64,000 nucleotides of DNA. It comes from Candidatus Pantoea gossypiicola. Lineage in GTDB: Bacteria; Pseudomonadota; Gammaproteobacteria; Enterobacterales; Enterobacteriaceae. The notes under the pieces were generated by a model that saw nothing but the letters and a program-made list of their open reading frames with translations, searched no databases and was not told the origin of the DNA. Position numbers and translations under genes: made by a program. The DNA lies in the NCBI RefSeq assembly GCF_008632075.1, contig NZ_VWVM01000003.1, forward strand, positions 248,001-312,000, written 5' to 3'. This document shows positions 3,157 to 62,906 of the stretch, one piece after another. Each line of letters starts with the position of its first letter. Position 1 is the stretch's first letter.

Positions 3157-5226
3157 ATGAAAAACGTCAAAACCAGCGTCATCTGGTTAGTGGTGGCGTT
3201 AATCGGCGCGGGCGCTTTCGCCATGCTGGCCCTCAGCCGCGGCGAACACGTCAACGCAGTCTGGCTGGTGATAGCCGCTGTCGCCTGTTACAGCATCGCG
3301 TATCGCTTCTACAGCCTGTTTATCGCCCGCAATATCTTCGAACTGGACGATCGCCGAATGACCCCCGCCGAGCGGCTGAGCGACGGACTCGATTATGTCC
3401 CGACCAATAAATGGGTGCTGTTTGGTCATCACTTCGCGGCTATTGCCGGTGCCGGTCCGCTGGTTGGCCCGATTCTGGCAGCGCAGATGGGCTTTCTGCC
3501 GGGGACCATCTGGATTCTGGTTGGTGTCATGCTGGCGGGCGCGGTACAGGATTTCCTGATCCTGTTTATCTCAACCCGCCGTGATGGCCGCTCGCTGGGC
3601 GAGATGGCGCGACAGGAGCTGGGGGCGTTTGCCGGTGTGGTGACAATGCTTGGCGCGCTGGGCGTGATGATCATTATCCTGTCGGCGCTGGCGCTGGTTG
3701 TCGTAAAGGCGCTGGCAAACAGTCCATGGGGCCTGTTTACCATTGCAGCCACCATTCCCATTGCGCTGTTTATGGGCGTTTACATGCGCTTTATCCGCCC
3801 CGGTAAAATCGCCGAAGTGTCACTGATTGGCTTTGTGCTGATGATGGCGGCAATTATTTATGGCGGCGACGTGGCACAGCATCCTTACTGGGGCCCCTTC
3901 TTTACCCTGAAAGGCACCTCGCTGACCTGGGTACTGGTGATTTACGGCTTTATTGCTTCGGTACTGCCGGTCTGGCTGCTGCTGGCACCCCGCGACTACC
4001 TTTCGACCTTTCTTAAAATCGGCGTGATTGTCGGGCTGGCGGTGGGCATTGTCTTTGCGATGCCTGAGATGAAAATGCCCGCGGTGACCAAATTTATCGA
4101 CGGCACCGGCCCGGTCTTCTCCGGCGCGATGTTCCCGTTCCTGTTTATCACCATTGCCTGCGGCGCGATCTCCGGCTTCCATGCACTGGTCTCCAGCGGC
4201 ACCACGCCGAAGCTGGTAGAGCGGGAAAGTCATATCCGCTTTATTGGCTATGGTGCAATGCTAATGGAGTCCTTTGTGGCGATCATGGCGCTGATTTGTG
4301 CCTCGGTGCTGGATCCTGGCGTCTACTTTGCCATGAACTCACCCGCTGCATTGATTGGCACCACCGTTGAAAGCGCTTCGCAGGTGATCAATGGCTGGGG
4401 CTTTGTCGTGACGCCCGAAATGCTGAGCGGTATTGCCCGTGATGTGGGAGAAGGCTCGATTCTCTCCCGCGCAGGCGGTGCGCCCACTTTCGCGGTCGGC
4501 ATGGCCCACATCATTACTGAGATCTTTAACAGCCGGGCGATGATGGCGTTCTGGTATCACTTCGCCATTCTGTTCGAAGCGCTGTTCATCCTGACCGCGG
4601 TGGATGCGGGTACCCGCGCCTGCCGTTTTATGGTGCAGGATCTGGTGGGAACTGTGGTGCCTTCTCTGGCGAACAACCGATCCTGGCTGGGGAACATGGC
4701 GGGCACCACCGTCGCGGTCGCGGGCTGGGGCTTCTTTGTCTACCAGGGCGTGGTCGATCCACTGGGCGGCATTAACACCCTGTGGCCACTGTTCGGTATC
4801 GGCAACCAGATGCTGGCGTCGATGGCGCTGATTCTTGGCACCGTGGTGCTGTTCAAAATGAAAAAGCAGCGCTACGCCTGGGTGACGATTCTGCCTACCG
4901 TCTGGCTGTTTATCACTTCAATGACGGCGGGCTGGCAGAAAATTTTCCACGAAAAGCCCTCCATTGGCTTCCTGGCCCAGGCGAATAAGTTCCGCAAAGG
5001 GCTGGATGAAGGCGTGATCATTGCACCGGCAAAAAGCGTGGCGGATATGCAGACCATCGTGTTCAGCAATCAGATTAATGCGGCGCTGTGCGCTTTCTTT
5101 ATGCTGGTGGCAGTCACGATGCTGGTCGCCGCGTTCTTTGTGATTCGTCGCGCGCTGAACAGTGCGGTGCCGACCACCAGCGAGACGTCTGTGACACTGC
5201 GTAACAAGGCGGTGCGTCATGTCTGA
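3157..5226 (+). CDS. cstA: CstA-family carbon starvation / peptide-pyruvate transporter
   Basis: Inner-membrane transporter of the CstA/BtsT family, 689 aa with many hydrophobic helices. E. coli members are CstA (701 aa, peptide/pyruvate uptake under carbon starvation) and BtsT/YjiY (716 aa, pyruvate:H+ symport). Family hallmarks seen: FGHHFAAIAGAGPLVGP near residue 90, AGAVQDFLILFISTRRDGRS near 130, LPVWLLLAPRDYLSTFLKIG near 275, FPFLFITIACGAISGFHALV near 325 and DAGTRACRFMVQDL near 490. The ATG at 3157 follows AAGGAGTTAGTC, a strong ribosome binding site. The next gene overlaps its stop by 8 bp, the same arrangement as cstA-ybdD and btsT-yjiX, which implies translational coupling. In E. coli no such pair lies beside rnb, so this is an accessory insertion relative to that map. 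Whether it is the CstA or BtsT orthologue cannot be settled by eye. Confidence 0.92.
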   Translation: MKNVKTSVIWLVVALIGAGAFAMLALSRGEHVNAVWLVIAAVACYSIAYRFYSLFIARNIFELDDRRMTPAERLSDGLDYVPTNKWVLFGHHFAAIAGAGPLVGPILAAQMGFLPGTIWILVGVMLAGAVQDFLILFISTRRDGRSLGEMARQELGAFAGVVTMLGALGVMIIILSALALVVVKALANSPWGLFTIAATIPIALFMGVYMRFIRPGKIAEVSLIGFVLMMAAIIYGGDVAQHPYWGPFFTLKGTSLTWVLVIYGFIASVLPVWLLLAPRDYLSTFLKIGVIVGLAVGIVFAMPEMKMPAVTKFIDGTGPVFSGAMFPFLFITIACGAISGFHALVSSGTTPKLVERESHIRFIGYGAMLMESFVAIMALICASVLDPGVYFAMNSPAALIGTTVESASQVINGWGFVVTPEMLSGIARDVGEGSILSRAGGAPTFAVGMAHIITEIFNSRAMMAFWYHFAILFEALFILTAVDAGTRACRFMVQDLVGTVVPSLANNRSWLGNMAGTTVAVAGWGFFVYQGVVDPLGGINTLWPLFGIGNQMLASMALILGTVVLFKMKKQRYAWVTILPTVWLFITSMTAGWQKIFHEKPSIGFLAQANKFRKGLDEGVIIAPAKSVADMQTIVFSNQINAALCAFFMLVAVTMLVAAFFVIRRALNSAVPTTSETSVTLRNKAVRHV

Positions 5227-5668: not shown

Positions 5669-7654
5669 ATGACCGATGAACACGGGCAAACGTTGTTGTA
5701 CACTCTTTTTGGTACAACCAGCCCTCATTGGCGTCTGACCGCGGACAGCGATGCATTGCATTTTGCCGAAGATGAGTCATCACAAACCAATATCGCCCTG
5801 CCGCTAACTCCCGGCCAGGCCGCAATGATCCGCGCGATGCCGGTCATCACCTCAAGCATTAATCTGACTATGACCCTTCAGGGCATTGACGTGCCAATGC
5901 ATTTTGTCGGACGCAAAGTGAACCAGGCTTCATGGGCTGGCACCGCCTCTGCCTGGGGTGATACGTCTGCGGTTGCCCGGGATTTAACCCTGGGACTGTC
6001 ATTCGCTGAACAGGTGGTTTCTGAAGCTAATTCGGTGATTGTGATCCTCGATCAGCGGGGCAATATCCAGCGTTTTAACCGCCTTAGTGAAGAATATACC
6101 GGCCTGAATGAGCACGAGGTTATTGGCCGTAACGTCTTTCAGCTTTTTATGACCAAACAGGAAGCCTCACAGTCACGACGCAACATTGCGGGCTTCTTCC
6201 GTGACGGTAACTCTTATGAGGTTGAGCGCTGGGTCAAAACCAAAAAAGGTCAGCGACTGTTTCTGTTTCGTAATAAGTTTGTTCACAGCGGCAGTGGCAA
6301 AAATGAAATTTTCCTCATCTGTTCTGGCACAGACATCACCGAGGAGCGACGCGCTCAGGAACGTCTGCGGGTGCTGGCAAACACCGATACAGTGACCGGT
6401 TTACCCAATCGCAACGCCATTCATCAACAGATTAGCCTGGCGCTGGAGCGATCCGAGGGTGATGAGACCGGCGTGGTTTATCTCGACCTCGATAATTTTA
6501 AAAAGGTGAACGACGCCTACGGTCATATGTTCGGCGATCAGTTACTGCAGGCCGTATCACTGGCCATCCTCAGCTGTCTGGGTAAAGATCAGACTCTGGG
6601 CCGTCTGGGTGGCGACGAATTTGTGGTGCTGGCTGAGCACACCAGCCAGGCGGCACTGGAAGCGATGTCTTCCCGTATTCTTGAGCGGCTGCGTCAGCCG
6701 TTCCGTATCGGGCTGATAGAAGTTTACAGCGGCTGTTCTATTGGCATCGCTTTCGCGCCGCTGCATGGCGACGATCGCGAGAGCCTGATTCGCAACGCAG
6801 ACACCGCGATGTATCACGCCAAAGAGAACGGGCGCGGCAAGTTCTGCGTGTTTGCGGCTGAGATGAACCAACGGGTCTTTGAGTATCTGTGGCTGGATAC
6901 TAACCTGCGCAAGGCGCTGGAACTGGATCATCTGCTGGTACACTACCAGCCAAAAATCGACAGCGATGGCCAGGTCCGCAGTGCTGAAGCCCTGGTGCGC
7001 TGGAACTCGCCAGAACGTGGTCTGGTCTCGCCTGCTGACTTTATTCCCTATGCTGAAGAGTCAGGGCTGATTGTGCCGCTGGGACGCTGGGTCATGCTCA
7101 ACGTGCTGAAGCAGATTATCGCCTGGCGTGAGCAGGGCATGTTTCTGCGCGTCGCCGTCAACGTTTCTGCCCGTCAGTTGATTGATCAGAGCATCTACAC
7201 TGACCTGAAACAGGCGCTGCATGAGGCTAATATCACCGACTGCCCCATCGATATTGAGCTGACCGAAAGCTGCCTGATTGAGAATGAAACGGAAGCGCTG
7301 AAGCTGATGAAGCAGTTTCAGGAACTGGGCGCACAGGTGCACCTGGATGACTTTGGCACCGGTTACTCCTCGCTTTCTCAGCTGGCACGCGTGCCAATCA
7401 ATGCCATCAAACTCGACCAGAGCTTTATCCGCGATATTAACAAGCAGCCGGTTTCACAATCGCTGGTGCGTGCTATCGTCGCCGTCGCCAAGGCGCTCGA
7501 TTTGCAGGTGATCGCTGAGGGTATTGAGACCCCGGATGAAGAGAAGTTTGTTCTCAAAAGTGGTGTCGATGGGCGTCAGGGTTACTATTACGCAAAACCA
7601 ATGCCCGCGGAACAATTTGGGCATTGGCTGGCTAAGCATCCTGCCCGCGTTTAA
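5669..7654 (+). CDS. rpfR: c-di-GMP phosphodiesterase / DSF receptor, PAS-GGDEF-EAL (RpfR/PdeR)
   Basis: Cytoplasmic cyclic-di-GMP enzyme of 661 aa, the length of E. coli PdeR (Gmr/YciR). Domains: an N-terminal region of about 100 residues that in RpfR orthologues contacts RpfF, a PAS domain about 112-230 (fatty-acid signal sensor in RpfR proteins), GGDEF domain about 236-400 with intact GGDEF at 314-318, and EAL domain about 410-655 with intact EAL at 440-442 and the DDFGTGYSS loop. Both catalytic motifs look complete. In Burkholderia and Cronobacter RpfR, binding of the cis-2-unsaturated fatty acid BDSF stimulates c-di-GMP degradation. Here the gene is convergent with rpfF, 12 bp away, which favours the RpfR role over a lone PdeR. 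ATG 5669 follows CCCGGAGGAAG. In E. coli the orthologue controls csgD and biofilm formation. Enzymatic balance is inferred. Confidence 0.93.
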   Translation: MTDEHGQTLLYTLFGTTSPHWRLTADSDALHFAEDESSQTNIALPLTPGQAAMIRAMPVITSSINLTMTLQGIDVPMHFVGRKVNQASWAGTASAWGDTSAVARDLTLGLSFAEQVVSEANSVIVILDQRGNIQRFNRLSEEYTGLNEHEVIGRNVFQLFMTKQEASQSRRNIAGFFRDGNSYEVERWVKTKKGQRLFLFRNKFVHSGSGKNEIFLICSGTDITEERRAQERLRVLANTDTVTGLPNRNAIHQQISLALERSEGDETGVVYLDLDNFKKVNDAYGHMFGDQLLQAVSLAILSCLGKDQTLGRLGGDEFVVLAEHTSQAALEAMSSRILERLRQPFRIGLIEVYSGCSIGIAFAPLHGDDRESLIRNADTAMYHAKENGRGKFCVFAAEMNQRVFEYLWLDTNLRKALELDHLLVHYQPKIDSDGQVRSAEALVRWNSPERGLVSPADFIPYAEESGLIVPLGRWVMLNVLKQIIAWREQGMFLRVAVNVSARQLIDQSIYTDLKQALHEANITDCPIDIELTESCLIENETEALKLMKQFQELGAQVHLDDFGTGYSSLSQLARVPINAIKLDQSFIRDINKQPVSQSLVRAIVAVAKALDLQVIAEGIETPDEEKFVLKSGVDGRQGYYYAKPMPAEQFGHWLAKHPARV

Positions 7655-7666
7655 CGCTGGTTAAGA

Positions 7667-8533
7667 TTAACCCGCTTTACGCAGTGATGCGCTGTGGCGG
7701 TTTTGTAACTGTACCAGGCGTTCCATGTAAGCAATGTCTTTGGGTTCGAGAGTGAAGGCATAATCAACCCAATCCTCAGTGATGTCCATCAGCTCAGCGC
7801 GTGACAGTTGCAGCACGCGCTGACGTGCTTTCAGCATCGCCCGTACGCCATTGAGTTTAGGCCGTAACGTATCGATAAAGGTGCGTGTGGCGCGGTAGCT
7901 GTCGCCAGGCTGGAAGACTTTATCCACCAGTCCGCGGGTCTCATACCACTCCGCACTATGGGACTCCCCTTCGCAGATTAACTCCTCTGCCAGCTTCATG
8001 CCGGAACGACGCGCCACCAGCGAATAGCCGCCCATGCCAGGAAACAGGTTAAAAGCGATTTCAGGGAAGCCCATCCGCGCGTTGTTCTGCGCCAGAATGA
8101 AGTGATGCGCCAGCGCCGCCTCAAATCCGCCACCCAGCGCACTGCCTTCAATCATCGCCAGCGTCACCGCGCCGGTATCGAAACCACGTGCTGCCGAATG
8201 GATACAATCCACACAGGCACGGGCATAGGCTCGTAGCGCCTCACGACGGTTATTGCGAATGCACTCGACGAAGAAGCGCAAATCGCCACCGGCGTTAAAC
8301 ATCTGCGGCACCAGTGAGCCGGTGACCCAGAAATCGATTGGCAGACCGGAGCGCTGAGCGGCATAGCTCAGGTTCATGATCTCCTCAATCAGTTCGTGGT
8401 TGAAGCTCGGACGGGGCTGAGCACGCAGCATCATCCACATGGTACGACGCCCTTCTTCGTAATAGGCGACTAACTGCGTGGTGTTGCCGACTTCGGTAAA
8501 TAATCTGCACGTTGCTTGGTTAATAACTGTCAT
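7667..8533 (-). CDS. rpfF: DSF-family fatty-acid signal synthase RpfF (crotonase fold)
   Basis: A 288-aa crotonase-superfamily protein that resembles Xanthomonas RpfF (289 aa) along its whole length. RpfF takes 3-hydroxyacyl-ACP, dehydrates it and cleaves the thioester to release a cis-2-unsaturated fatty acid (DSF/BDSF). Visible hallmarks: FNAGGDL oxyanion-hole segment at 79-85, GSALGGGFEAAL at 130-141 with Glu138, and MGFPEIAFNLFPGMGGYS at 154-171 with Glu158. These two glutamates match the catalytic pair 141/161 of Xanthomonas RpfF with a constant offset of three. A generic enoyl-CoA hydratase is less likely because of the RpfF-specific N terminus and the FPGMGGYS loop. The start ATG has AGAGGATGAGAC before it. 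Its neighbour is the receptor gene, tail to tail. Product chain length cannot be read from sequence. Confidence 0.9.
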   Translation of the reverse strand: MTVINQATCRLFTEVGNTTQLVAYYEEGRRTMWMMLRAQPRPSFNHELIEEIMNLSYAAQRSGLPIDFWVTGSLVPQMFNAGGDLRFFVECIRNNRREALRAYARACVDCIHSAARGFDTGAVTLAMIEGSALGGGFEAALAHHFILAQNNARMGFPEIAFNLFPGMGGYSLVARRSGMKLAEELICEGESHSAEWYETRGLVDKVFQPGDSYRATRTFIDTLRPKLNGVRAMLKARQRVLQLSRAELMDITEDWVDYAFTLEPKDIAYMERLVQLQNRHSASLRKAG

Positions 8534-8678: not shown

Positions 8679-9668
8679 TTACTTAATAGCGGCACGCTGT
8701 CCGACGGCAACATGAAGACGCTTAAGACGTTTTGAATAGATGGCGGTGATGATGGGCACCAGCACAGAGGTCACAATCACGGAAGTGGCCACCAGCGCTG
8801 TGGCCGCCGGGGCAACCGCTTTAAACTGCGGCAGCATTTCGGCAATCAGCACCGGTGTTGCCACCGCCGCGCCTGCCGTACTGGATGCGGCCACGCCCGC
8901 CGTGCCATCTCCCCCACCAATCAGCCGATCGGCCAGAATAAGCGGGATACCGGTAATGATGATGACGGCTACGCCCAGCATGATGCCCAGAAGGCCGGTT
9001 TCCGCAATCACGCCCAGGTTAATGGTGTTACCCAGTGCAAAAGCGAAGAAGGGAATCAGCGTATGTACCGCTTTGCCGAAGAAGTCGCGCAACTCCGGAT
9101 CAAGATTCCCTAATGCAAATCCCACCACAAACGGCAGGATCGCGCCGACAAACACGTGCGGCTCAAATGATGCGATACCGGCAGTGCCCAGTATCACCAT
9201 GGTCATTAATGGCCCGGACTCCAGTGACATCAGCACAAAGGCGCCCGCTTCCTCTTTGGAACCGTACTGTTGCATGATGGAGGCATAAAGACCGCCATTG
9301 GTCATATCCATCGCGGCAACCAGCGCCAGCGTCGATAAGCCGGCAAACATCCCCACTTCTACGCCATTTTCCGGCATCACCCGCGAGGCGATTGCGGCCA
9401 CTACCCATGCCACGGCAATTTTGGTGAGCACCAGCGTGCCGGATTTACGTAGTACCGTTCCGGTGGCGCTGAGCTTTATCGACGCCCCCATGCAGAAGAA
9501 CCAGACGGCCAGAATGGGCACGGTGCCGGTCATCAGACCGTTGGTGAAAGAACCGAAATATTTCCCGGCCCCCGGCGAGAACGTATGGCAGAGTGCGCCG
9601 ATAAACAGCGGAATGAGCATCATGCCGCCCGGAATTTTATCTATTGCCCGTTTGATGTGCATATACAT
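8679..9668 (-). CDS. kdgT: 2-keto-3-deoxygluconate permease
   Basis: Inner-membrane H+ symporter for 2-keto-3-deoxygluconate, a pectin and uronate breakdown product; about 329 aa with ten or so membrane helices (E. coli KdgT 327 aa). Near-identity to the family is seen in [20 protein letters not shown] near the start, [19 protein letters not shown] mid-protein and [18 protein letters not shown] near residue 250. I set the start at the ATG at 9668 because AAAGGTG lies 5 bases upstream; a longer frame reaching 9713 adds residues absent from the family. A KdgR-like palindrome lies about 90 bp upstream (9757-9773), so derepression by pectate-derived intermediates is likely. Catabolic partners kdgK/kdgA are not in this window. 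Confidence 0.95.
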
Positions 9669-9756
9669 GTCACCTTTGCTATGCCAGAGGGTGCCCGGAG
9701 GCGATGCAGGCAAAGTAGTGACTTGAAGTAATCAAAACAGTGATCAATCCGATAAA

Positions 9757-9867: not shown

Positions 9868-10566
9868 TTATTTTTGCCCGTACCAGGCATTCTCGCCATG
9901 CTTTCGCAGATAGTGCAGGTCAAGCAGCGTCTGGTTAATCGGCGGCAGGTCTGGTGTCAGCTGCTGGCTGAACAGGCCCATATAGGCCACCTCCTCCAGC
10001 ACTACCGCGCTATGCACGGCCGCATGGGCGTCTTTGCCCCAGGCAAACGGGCCGTGTGAGTTGACCAGCACCCCAGGAATTGCCGAAGGTGACAATCCGC
10101 GCTGTGCAAAGGTTTCGATAATCACTTCACCCGTATTCCACTCGTACTCGTGCTGAATCTCTTCATTGCGCATTGCGCGGGTACAGGGGATCTCGCCATA
10201 GAAATCGTCAGCGTGAGTGGTTCCCCAGGCTGGGATCGGTCGTCCAGCCTGCGCCCAGATGGTCGCATGCCGCGAATGGGTATGGACAATGCCACCAACT
10301 TCCGGCCAGGCGAGATAGAGCGCGCGGTGCGTTGCCGTGTCTGATGAAGGGCGTTTATCCCCTTCCACTACCTCGCCTCTCGCCAGATCGACGACCACCA
10401 TGTCGTCGCGCTTCATCACATCATAGCTTACGCCAGACGGTTTAATCACCAGCAAACCCTGTTCGCGATCAACCGCGCTGACATTGCCCCAGGTGAAGGT
10501 CACCAGGTTATATTTGGGTAAATCCAGATTCGCTTCCAGAACCTGCTGTTTAAGGTGTTCCAGCAT
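9868..10566 (-). CDS. araD: L-ribulose-5-phosphate 4-epimerase
   Basis: Class II aldolase-fold, zinc-dependent enzyme converting L-ribulose-5-phosphate to D-xylulose-5-phosphate in L-arabinose catabolism (cytoplasm). The 232-aa product matches E. coli AraD (231 aa) throughout. Zinc ligands His95, His97 and His171 are present ([10 protein letters not shown] and the SHGPFAWG segment), as are Asp76 in SSDT, Asp120 in THADD and Tyr229. The paralogues SgbE and UlaF catalyse the same reaction, but the N terminus ([20 protein letters not shown]) is AraD-like. No araB or araA gene lies next to it, so it is an orphan here and may serve a distant ara locus or another pentulose pathway. TAA is followed by a terminator. 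Confidence 0.9.
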
Positions 10567-60634: not shown

Positions 60635-61975
60635 TTATGCAGTTTGAATTGACGCTCCGCGGCCGATTGCATAATAAACGAAACCGCGTTTGCTGATACG
60701 CTCTGGATCATACAGGTTACGACCATCAAAAATCACGGCTTCTTTCAGTGCATTTTTGATAACGTCAAAGTCAGGCGCACGGAAGTTTTGCCACTCTGTA
60801 CAGATGACCAGACCGTCTGCGCCCTGCAGTGCGGCCTCTTTGGTACCCATCAGCTTCAGATCGCTGCGGTGACCATAGATGCGCTGCGCTTCATCCATCG
60901 CTTCAGGGTCAAACGCCTGGACAGATGCGCCCGCTTCCCACAGCGTTTCCATCAGCACACGGCTGGAGGCTTCACGCATGTCGTCAGTGTTCGGCTTAAA
61001 TGACAGGCCCCAGAGTGCAAACGTCTTACCTTTCAGATCGTCACCAAAATGACGCTTGATGAAGGTCGGCAGCTTGTTTTTCTGGTTGTCATTCACATCT
61101 TCCACCGCCTGCAACAGACGTGGCTGATAGCCAATGGACTCAGCGGTACGGATTAACGCCTGCACATCTTTCGGGAAGCAGGAGCCGCCGTAGCCACAGC
61201 CAGGATAGATAAAGTGGTAGCCAATGCGGGGATCAGAACCGATACCCTGGCGTACTTTCTCGATATCCGCGCCTAAACGTTCAGCCAGGTTAGACATCTC
61301 GTTCATAAAGCTGATTTTGGTAGCCAGCATGCAGTTTGCAGCATACTTGGTCAGCTCTGCGCTGCGGATATCCATCATGATCATGCGATCGTGGTTACGG
61401 TTAAACGGCTCATAGAGCTCGCGTAACAGTTCGACCACGTCGTCGTTGTCGGTACCGACAACAATACGCTCCGGACGCATACAGTCATTAACTGCTGCAC
61501 CCTCTTTCAGGAATTCCGGGTTTGAAACCACATCGAAGGTGATGTTGGCGTCACGCGCTTTAAGCGTTTCCGTCATTACTGCACGAACTTTGTCTGCTGT
61601 GCCAACCGGAACGGTTGATTTGTCGATAACCACTTTGTGATCGTTCATATGCTGCGCAATGGTGCGCGCTACGGCGGTCACATATTTCAGATCGGCAGAG
61701 CCGTCTTCATCCGGTGGTGTACCGACTGCAATAAACTGCATAACACCATGGTTTACGCCCTGCTCAGCCTCAGTGCTGAACTTCAGACGACCCGCTTCGT
61801 AATTGGACATTACCAGCGGCGTTAAACCTGGTTCGAAAATAGGAATGATGCCTTTTTTCAGATTTTCGACTTTATTAGCGTCGACATCAATGCAGAGAAC
61901 GTCATGTCCGACTTCGGCTAACACCGCAGCCTGAACCAGACCGACATAGCCGATACCAAATACAGTGACTTTCAT
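60635..61975 (-). CDS. ugd: UDP-glucose 6-dehydrogenase (long form)
   Basis: Oxidises UDP-glucose to UDP-glucuronate with 2 NAD+. 446 aa, longer than the 388-aa E. coli Ugd, the type seen in many polysaccharide producers. N-terminal Rossmann GxGYVG ([14 protein letters not shown]), Cys266 nucleophile in [10 protein letters not shown], and [20 protein letters not shown] in the C-terminal domain. Second gene of galU-ugd-uge; AGGATAA before ATG. Confidence 0.95.
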
Positions 61976-61997
61976 CGAGTTATCCTGTGTTTATGAA

Positions 61998-62906
61998 TTA
62001 CTTTTTGTTGCCAACTGCGCCATCGAGCCATTCAGAAAAATCTTTGCCCAATACCGGATGACGAACACCGTACTCAACGAAAGCCTGCATGTAGCCCAGC
62101 TTGTTACCACAGTCATGGCTCACGCCTTTCAGGTGATAAGCTTCAACCGTCTCTTTTTCCATCAGCATAGCAATGGAGTCAGTCAGCTGAACTTCGCCGC
62201 CTGCACCTGGAGGCGTTTTCGCCAGCAGTGGCCAGATCTCTGAAGACAGCACATAACGACCTACAACGGCCAGATTTGATGGTGACTCTGACGCTTTAGG
62301 CTTCTCAACCACACCAACCATAGGTGCGCTGTCGCCTGGGTTCAGTTCTGCGCCCTGGCAATCAACAACACCGTACGCGGTAACATCGTCAACCGGCTCA
62401 ACCATGATCTGGCTGCGGCCAGACTCTTCATAACGGCTCAGCATCTCTGCCAGGTTATCTTTGGTTGGGTTGGATTCATATTCGTCGATAATGACGTCTG
62501 GCAGGATGACCGCAAATGGCTCATCACCGATCAGCGGGTGTGCACACATCACAGCGTGACCCAGACCTTTAGCGATGCCCTGACGGACCTGCATAATGGT
62601 AACGTGTGGCGGGCAGATTGACTGGATTTCATCCAGCAGCTGACGCTTAACGCGTTTTTCCAGCATTGATTCCAGTTCGAAGCTGGTATCAAAGTGGTTT
62701 TCGATGGCATTTTTTGATGAATGCGTAACCAGCACAATTTCGTTGATGCCAGCAGCGATACACTCGTTAACGACATACTGGATTAACGGCTTATCAACCA
62801 GCGGTAACATCTCTTTTGGAATCGCTTTGGTAGCCGGGAGCATACGCGTACCCAAACCCGCTACCGGGATTACCGCTTTTTTTACTTTGGTATTATTGGC
62901 AGACAT
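61998..62906 (-). CDS. galU: UTP-glucose-1-phosphate uridylyltransferase
   Basis: Makes UDP-glucose, precursor of LPS core, trehalose and exopolysaccharide. 302 aa, the E. coli length. [20 protein letters not shown] (nucleotide-binding), [20 protein letters not shown] and [20 protein letters not shown]. First gene of the operon; GAGAGG is seven bases before ATG. ugd begins 22 bp after its stop. Confidence 0.98.

Follow-up and report, generated by a model that had tools for sequence, protein, structure and literature searches.

A predicted, apparently complete RpfF/RpfR signalling module at the pdeR locus of Candidatus Pantoea gossypiicola, and possible decay of the receptor's signal-reading half where the synthase is missing

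The DNA considered here is a stretch of 64,000 nucleotides from Candidatus Pantoea gossypiicola (assembly GCF_008632075.1, contig NZ_VWVM01000003.1, positions 248,001 to 312,000), referred to below as the window. It carries two convergent open reading frames (ORFs), rpfR, the orthologue of E. coli pdeR (also named yciR or gmr), and rpfF, which encodes a predicted synthase of the diffusible signal factor (DSF) family (Table 1). Together they very probably constitute a complete and intact RpfF/RpfR module of the Burkholderia DSF (BDSF) type, located at the pdeR locus that is common to E. coli and its close relatives. A preliminary description had proposed a tail-to-tail pair at exactly these coordinates, a full-length RpfF with both catalytic glutamates, and a complete DSF module that would link a fatty-acid signal to cyclic di-GMP (c-di-GMP); the ORFs, the gene identities, the domain content and the key residues bear this out. 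The module and its mechanism are already known, RpfF homologues of Pantoea and Erwinia being listed in a review (PMC12838280, available part), and the pair is ordinary in this genome. The part that may be new concerns the relatives in which rpfR stands alone: as far as aligned residues can tell, the signal-reading half of the receptor seems to fall out of use once the synthase is lost, a hint that the receptor of E. coli is a retired DSF receptor.

Table 1. Features of the rpfR/rpfF locus and neighbouring genes (positions in the window).
Feature	Position	Strand	Evidence
rpfR (E. coli pdeR/yciR/gmr orthologue), FI-PAS-GGDEF-EAL, 661 aa	5669..7654	+	ORF; PRK10060 1206 bits; domain matches
FI (RpfF-interaction) domain, residues 1-95; D26, S27, A29, G72 kept	5669..5953	+	6dga match; predicted fold vs 6dgn_B
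PAS domain, residues 115-224; S169, N172, Y183, R187, N202 all kept	6011..6340	+	6dgg match
GGDEF domain, residues 237-390; GGDEF motif intact at 314-318	6377..6838	+	Pfam; motif check
EAL phosphodiesterase domain, residues 412-644; EAL at 440, DDFGTG at 560	6902..7600	+	Pfam; motif check
12 bp separating the rpfR and rpfF stop codons, tail to tail	7655..7666		ORF ends
rpfF, DSF-family cis-2 fatty acid synthase (predicted), crotonase fold, 288 aa, E138 and E158	7667..8533	-	ORF; PDB matches
kdgT, neighbour outside the module, variable in relatives	8679..9713	-	TIGR00793; synteny
araD-like L-ribulose-5-phosphate 4-epimerase, neighbour outside the module	9868..10566	-	family match
CstA-family transporter between rnb and rpfR, neighbour outside the module	3157..5226	+	PF02554; synteny

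The product of rpfR clearly exceeds the cut-off of the NCBIfam model PRK10060, "cyclic di-GMP phosphodiesterase" (1206 against 782 bits), and Pfam recognizes a PAS, a GGDEF (residues 237-390) and an EAL domain (residues 412-644). The preliminary description had read the protein as a PAS-GGDEF-EAL receptor, which is correct for the domains named and incomplete, since the N-terminal RpfF-interaction (FI) domain had gone unnoticed: residues 2-95 match the FI domain of Cronobacter RpfR (PDB 6dga, E 2.2e-26), followed by a match of residues 115-224 to the RpfR PAS domain (6dgg, E 2.2e-59). The protein has the FI-PAS-GGDEF-EAL architecture of an RpfR receptor, as judged by sequence matches and, for the FI fold, by a predicted model of residues 1-230, in which FI fits the RpfF-bound chain 6dgn_B with a root-mean-square deviation (rmsd) of 0.8 over 87 columns. 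In Cronobacter turicensis RpfR, BDSF is contacted by S169, N172, Y183, R187 and N202 (PMC6361424, available part); all five residues are present in the window RpfR, with identical numbering. The GGDEF and EAL motifs are intact, and a BDSF-activated phosphodiesterase activity is predicted; FI has the expected modelled fold and conserved residues, and its docking on RpfF, with inhibition of the latter, is likewise predicted.

For the window RpfF, the top PDB matches are two chains of Burkholderia cenocepacia RpfF, 6dgn_A (430 bits; 65% identity over 277 residues) and 5fus_A (428 bits), followed by Xanthomonas RpfF (3m6m, 153 bits) and by 7zq7 (149 bits), named merely "crotonase/enoyl-CoA hydratase family protein"; among the matches listed, the remaining chains reach at most 56 bits. 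The cut-off of PRK08788 is passed as well (411 vs 177 bits). Glu138 and Glu158 are kept, together with Phe44 and Phe88, in all of the 80 named relatives retained for comparison out of 289 confirmed ones. Both phenylalanines reportedly move upon FI binding (PMC6361424, available part). The nearest named relatives are Pantoea, and in three named genomes RpfF is 100% identical over 288 residues. The whole genome (4.94 Mb, 47 contigs) holds one RpfF; two further weak matches lie within ORFs of more than 700 aa and are taken to be FadB/FadJ-type enzymes.

The distribution of both genes was assessed by translated searches of draft genomes (thresholds E 1e-40 for RpfF and E 1e-150 for RpfR), on which the labels "paired" and "orphan" rest; at most three RpfR candidates were scored per genome, such that more diverged RpfRs could be missed. 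Among 343 genomes sampled across the GTDB family, 84 carry RpfF and 119 carry RpfR. In 84 of 84 RpfF genomes, the contig that carries rpfF also carries a convergent rpfR, with a gap of at most 100 bp in 77 of them and of 317 to 6285 bp in the other seven, the widest split (about 6.3 kb) being that of locus L224 in genome G306. At these thresholds, RpfF without RpfR was found in none of the 343 genomes, and RpfR without RpfF in 35. In a sample of the GTDB order, RpfF was detected at E 1e-40 in 30 of 394 genomes. Nine of these, all from one genus (L104-L112), carry a distant type (34-38% identity), which perhaps belongs to a different DSF system or represents another enzyme; among the matches listed, their RpfR matches are weaker (best identity 40%), and none of them reaches the FI region. 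A class-wide search found RpfF in one of 239 genomes, the window's own, and therefore yielded no broader tree. Across 80 genomes, RpfF distances track those of FI (r = 0.91) and of the RpfR C-terminal part (r = 0.86). This agreement shows only that both proteins travel together, and the reading of the latter correlation as a sign of vertical descent was rejected for that reason.

Several individual genomes depart from the compact, intact pair. The module is interrupted in G687 (L254), one of the 84 RpfF genomes, where rpfF is in two pieces, and in G594 (L235), where rpfR has an internal TAG. A second full-length RpfF, 73% identical to that of the window, was found in one genome (G629:C7:1005864-1006727) about 283 kb from the rpfR-linked copy. 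In Pantoea dispersa DSM 30073 (L013, reverse-complement, ~7411), a deletion fuses the cstA-like gene (at codon 430) to rpfR (at codon 139), which removes FI and the start of PAS and leaves rpfF intact; this may be a strain-specific or an assembly event. In Pantoea conspicua LMG 24534 (L007, 9892-11867), rpfR falls into two reading frames, with the break near codon 108, again beside an intact rpfF.

The position of the pair was compared among the 80 named relatives, a paired set of 54 loci, the 35 synthase-less loci, and E. coli K-12, in which the gene order is rnb-pdeR-yciZ-yciT-osmB-yciH-pyrF. In the window, rpfR occupies the pdeR interval, between rnb and osmB-yciH-pyrF, and K-12 has pdeR without rpfF at this place, as the preliminary description had noted. 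Its view that the pair sits as an insertion is not supported for this genome: the neighbourhood comparison puts rpfR at the same interval in K-12, in synthase-less loci and in named relatives. The rnb-pyrF interval is present, in part or as a whole, in the window, in the 35 synthase-less loci within the limits of the stretches compared, in 78 of the 80 named relatives, and in 30 of the 54 loci of the paired set; variation concerns the cstA-like gene, araD and kdgT (the latter in 28 of the 80 named relatives). The other 24 loci of the paired set (e.g., L206, L209, L228, L242, L252) are without rnb, yciZ, osmB, yciH and pyrF within 5.5 kb, and belong to exactly those genomes that form the two deepest branches of the RpfR tree. 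This implies that the pair moved at least once in its older history, which partly favours the preliminary description, and the rnb interval may not be its oldest position.

Among rnb-linked loci, the distances of RpfF and of rnb agree closely (r = 0.85, n = 28), those of the RpfR C-terminal part and of rnb only moderately (r = 0.41 across 59 loci including orphans); in neither case was any of 1000 permutations as high. Moreover, weak remnants of rpfF adjoin rpfR at L166 (two pieces, E 4e-4 and 6e-4), at L200 (E 7e-4) and, marginally, at L190 (E 0.25), which favours loss of rpfF in those genomes. The preliminary description had left the choice between gain and retention of the module open; the tracking of rnb and the remnants favour retention with losses over a recent gain, with an older move of place also seen.

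The consequences of such losses for the receptor were explored by comparing 83 paired RpfRs (the 84 less G594, with its internal stop) with 33 orphans (E. coli K-12 and the 35, from which three partial ones were left out) at nine signature residues: D26, S27, A29 and G72 in FI, and the five BDSF contacts in PAS. The PAS residues were fixed beforehand from the literature (PMC6361424), and the FI residues were chosen from the present data, so the FI contrast is partly selected. All five BDSF contacts are identical in 83 of 83 paired RpfRs, including the 24 deep-branching ones, and so are D26, S27 and A29; G72 is kept in 82. The 78 usable named loci, which overlap the main set and are not independent of it, keep all nine residues, save G72 in one. 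Among the 33 orphans, D26, S27, A29 and G72 persist in 19, 16, 4 and 8, respectively. N172 was replaced by Tyr, His or Lys through four separate changes; S169 is Ala in six of the 33, Y183 is Trp once, Leu replaces R187 in K-12 and in two of its close relatives, and N202 never changed. K-12 PdeR combines R187L with D26S, A29V and G72E. A single one of the 33 synthase-less proteins has all nine residues intact. Regarding structure, the FI loops reported to contact RpfF include beta2-beta3 and beta4-beta5 in six-strand numbering (PMC6361424, available part). G72 alone of the four FI residues lies in a loop reported as buried in the RpfF interface (beta4-beta5); a placement of D26, S27 and A29 within the beta2-beta3 loop was considered and rejected, as the predicted strands put them in or beside the beta1-beta2 turn.

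On the GGDEF-EAL tree, the orphans form nine groups, and at least one signature residue has changed in eight of them. The unchanged ninth group is G188 (L166), the genome with the clearest rpfF remnant (~7992-8261), which keeps both ends of the gene, has lost the middle, and lies beside an RpfR with all nine residues. This combination is expected of a recent loss, and G188 is a probable case of one. Branch support, given as the Shimodaira-Hasegawa-like approximate likelihood ratio test (SH-aLRT), is 5.9 for the largest orphan group (18 members, K-12 included) and 99.9 to 100 for three smaller groups; for single orphans among paired relatives it is 97.4 (G462), 84.2 (G633), 83.9 (G459) and 26.7 (G188). 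With such mixed supports, the number of rpfF losses can be given as several, not as a fixed figure.

Several controls were applied to these changes. By parsimony, the five BDSF sites changed eight times on orphan branches and twice on basal mixed branches, the latter being a tie-dependent change and its reversal; for the four FI sites, the corresponding numbers are 35 and 3. Orphan branches account for 22% of the tree length. At sites that are unchanged on paired branches, orphans alter 30 of 74 in FI and PAS vs 14 of 129 in GGDEF and EAL. In the clade of 77 that contains E. coli, the density of orphan changes per otherwise invariant site in FI and PAS is 2.88 times that in GGDEF and EAL, compared to a median of 0.74 in 1000 random sets of pseudo-orphans drawn from paired clades, none of which reached 2.88; the plain change ratio (1.12 vs 0.88, sd 0.08) was likewise matched by none of the 1000 sets. 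With 36.8% of all PAS changes on orphan branches, the whole PAS domain is relaxed in orphans, and the five contacts are only part of this wider relaxation. In the reverse direction, 14 positions, all within the EAL half or C-terminal to it, are at least 90% alike in orphans and less than 60% in paired proteins; the greater diversity of the paired set accounts for part of this. An overall faster evolution of FI in orphans was not retained as a result, being weak once restricted to the clade of 77: there, the ratio of FI to C-terminal branch lengths is 3.45 vs 2.73 (branch-label permutation 0.031), and the PAS ratio is 1.06 vs 0.74 (0.030). The larger gap for FI on the whole tree (3.45 vs 1.50) is inflated by faster C-terminal evolution in other paired clades and is not relied on.

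The resulting proposal is that FI and the PAS pocket stay intact only while a resident RpfF exists, that the DSF-reading half decays after rpfF loss while the enzymatic half stays, that PdeR of E. coli and proteins akin to it have been retired as DSF receptors and put to use for other inputs, and that the nine-residue signature separates live from retired receptors; the chances that this is right appear evenly balanced. No earlier report of residue decay after synthase loss was found in the titles or abstract openings of the literature retrieved, which does not establish priority. The proposal sharpens the question of whether enterobacteria with RpfR/PdeR and without RpfF hear the DSF of other species or have lost this ability. 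The residue pattern predicts weakened DSF reading in K-12 (R187L) and in the lineages with Tyr, His or Lys at position 172, and full DSF reading in Pantoea. If the receptors are indeed retired, orphan RpfRs would mostly not be eavesdroppers on their neighbours' DSF. A response of E. coli Gmr to dodecanoic acid has been put forward as a speculation by Waldron et al. (PMC6361424, available part).

How the intact module might work, from the enzyme chemistry and the docking to the identity of the signal and the phenotype, is anticipated here by analogy to Cronobacter and Burkholderia. RpfF would make a cis-2 fatty acid out of acyl-ACP, and would be restrained by the FI domain of RpfR docking near its substrate tunnel. 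The signal would then bind the PAS pocket of RpfR and switch on the EAL phosphodiesterase; the activated receptor would lower c-di-GMP and, as a consequence, might reduce biofilm or matrix at high cell density. Cis-2 fatty acid synthesis by RpfF, restraint by FI near the tunnel and the PAS-activated phosphodiesterase have been published (available parts of PMC6361424 and PMC4698668), and in C. turicensis c-di-GMP rises 3.9-fold upon deletion of rpfR and 3.4-fold upon deletion of rpfF (PMC4698668). Four observations weigh against a working BDSF circuit of this kind in Pantoea. The available part of PMC4698668 states that wild-type Cronobacter gave no detectable signal in a bioassay, which implies that signal output may be low. 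Xylella RpfF has been studied in Pantoea agglomerans 299R as a surrogate host, alongside vector-only controls (PMC4958263, available part). The PAS half of the predicted RpfR model is poor (rmsd about 12; 12.6 to 6dgg) and of low confidence, FI being the better part of a model with a mean predicted local distance difference test (pLDDT) score of 65; the assignment of the PAS pocket therefore rests on sequence alone. Finally, the window RpfF scores 178 bits against the NCBIfam RpfF equivalog NF053515 and thus stays below its cut-off of 550. We infer that this model was probably built around another RpfF type than the RpfR-linked one. NF053515 misses RpfR-linked RpfF widely, and automatic annotation may under-call such synthases.

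The missed cut-off could also be taken to mean that the presumed RpfF is no more than a common enoyl-CoA hydratase whose pairing with rpfR is incidental, in line with its membership in the crotonase superfamily (Pfam ECH_1) and its match to 7zq7. However, B. cenocepacia RpfF outscores every other listed match by far, with none but Xanthomonas RpfF and 7zq7 above 56 bits, and neither the invariable presence of a convergent RpfR nor the close tracking of FI would be expected of an incidental neighbour, which renders this explanation extremely improbable. A different alternative accepts the pair as a signalling module and assumes its acquisition by horizontal transfer as a cassette. The absence of rpfF from K-12 and many relatives, the 24 deep-branching pairs away from the rnb interval, which imply a change of place, and the occurrence of the pair in Burkholderia (PMC12838280, available part) would fit this scenario. 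Against it speak the single place within the rnb-linked group, the correlation of RpfF with rnb distances, and the persistence of rpfF fragments at some synthase-less loci; transfer as a cassette is thus quite unlikely, and an older transfer or move may have occurred before the rnb-linked group arose.

As a further alternative, RpfR might act mainly like E. coli PdeR, as a c-di-GMP-sensing partner of MlrA with a minor fatty-acid input, given that E. coli YciR works through MlrA (PMC10333796, available part) and that an MlrA relative (53% identity) is encoded in the genome. However, a CsgD orthologue was not found in the genome (best match 44 bits, covering part of the protein), and all nine signature residues are intact here, compared to one of the 33 synthase-less proteins. 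A mainly PdeR-like role is therefore rather doubtful, and the PdeR-like and the DSF-receptor roles do not exclude each other.

Possible outputs of the BDSF-type module in this genome are two BcsA relatives (66% and 48%) and the MlrA relative; EAL domains occur at 23 places in the whole genome. The preliminary description suggested a possible link to galU-ugd-uge; in the window, galU and a nucleotide sugar dehydrogenase gene lie at 60635-62906, about 51 kb from rpfR/rpfF; the third gene of this galU-ugd-uge region has no NCBIfam match at E 1e-60. Promoter-like sites between 5200 and 8800 are at chance level (2 vs a mean of 2.7 in shuffled sequences).

Among known systems, RpfF/RpfR of Cronobacter turicensis is alike in its domains, in the match of FI and PAS to its crystal structures, and in the numbering of the BDSF contacts; the effects of mutants on c-di-GMP were measured there, whereas function in Pantoea is predicted. 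The Burkholderia cenocepacia pair, BCAM0581 (RpfF) and BCAM0580 (RpfR), has a 65% identical synthase and the same predicted enzyme and receptor roles, but belongs to a lineage of the beta-subdivision and to another locus, and Burkholderia has the extra receptors BCAM0227 and DsfR. The RpfF-RpfC-RpfG system of Xanthomonas shares a homologous synthase (153 bits to 3m6m), which is far less similar, and its receptor differs in type, being a hybrid kinase that is accompanied by an HD-GYP regulator (PMC4698668, available part). E. coli PdeR, in turn, is the orthologue at the same locus, but stands without rpfF and, in K-12, carries Leu in place of R187, Ser in place of D26, Val in place of A29 and Glu in place of G72.

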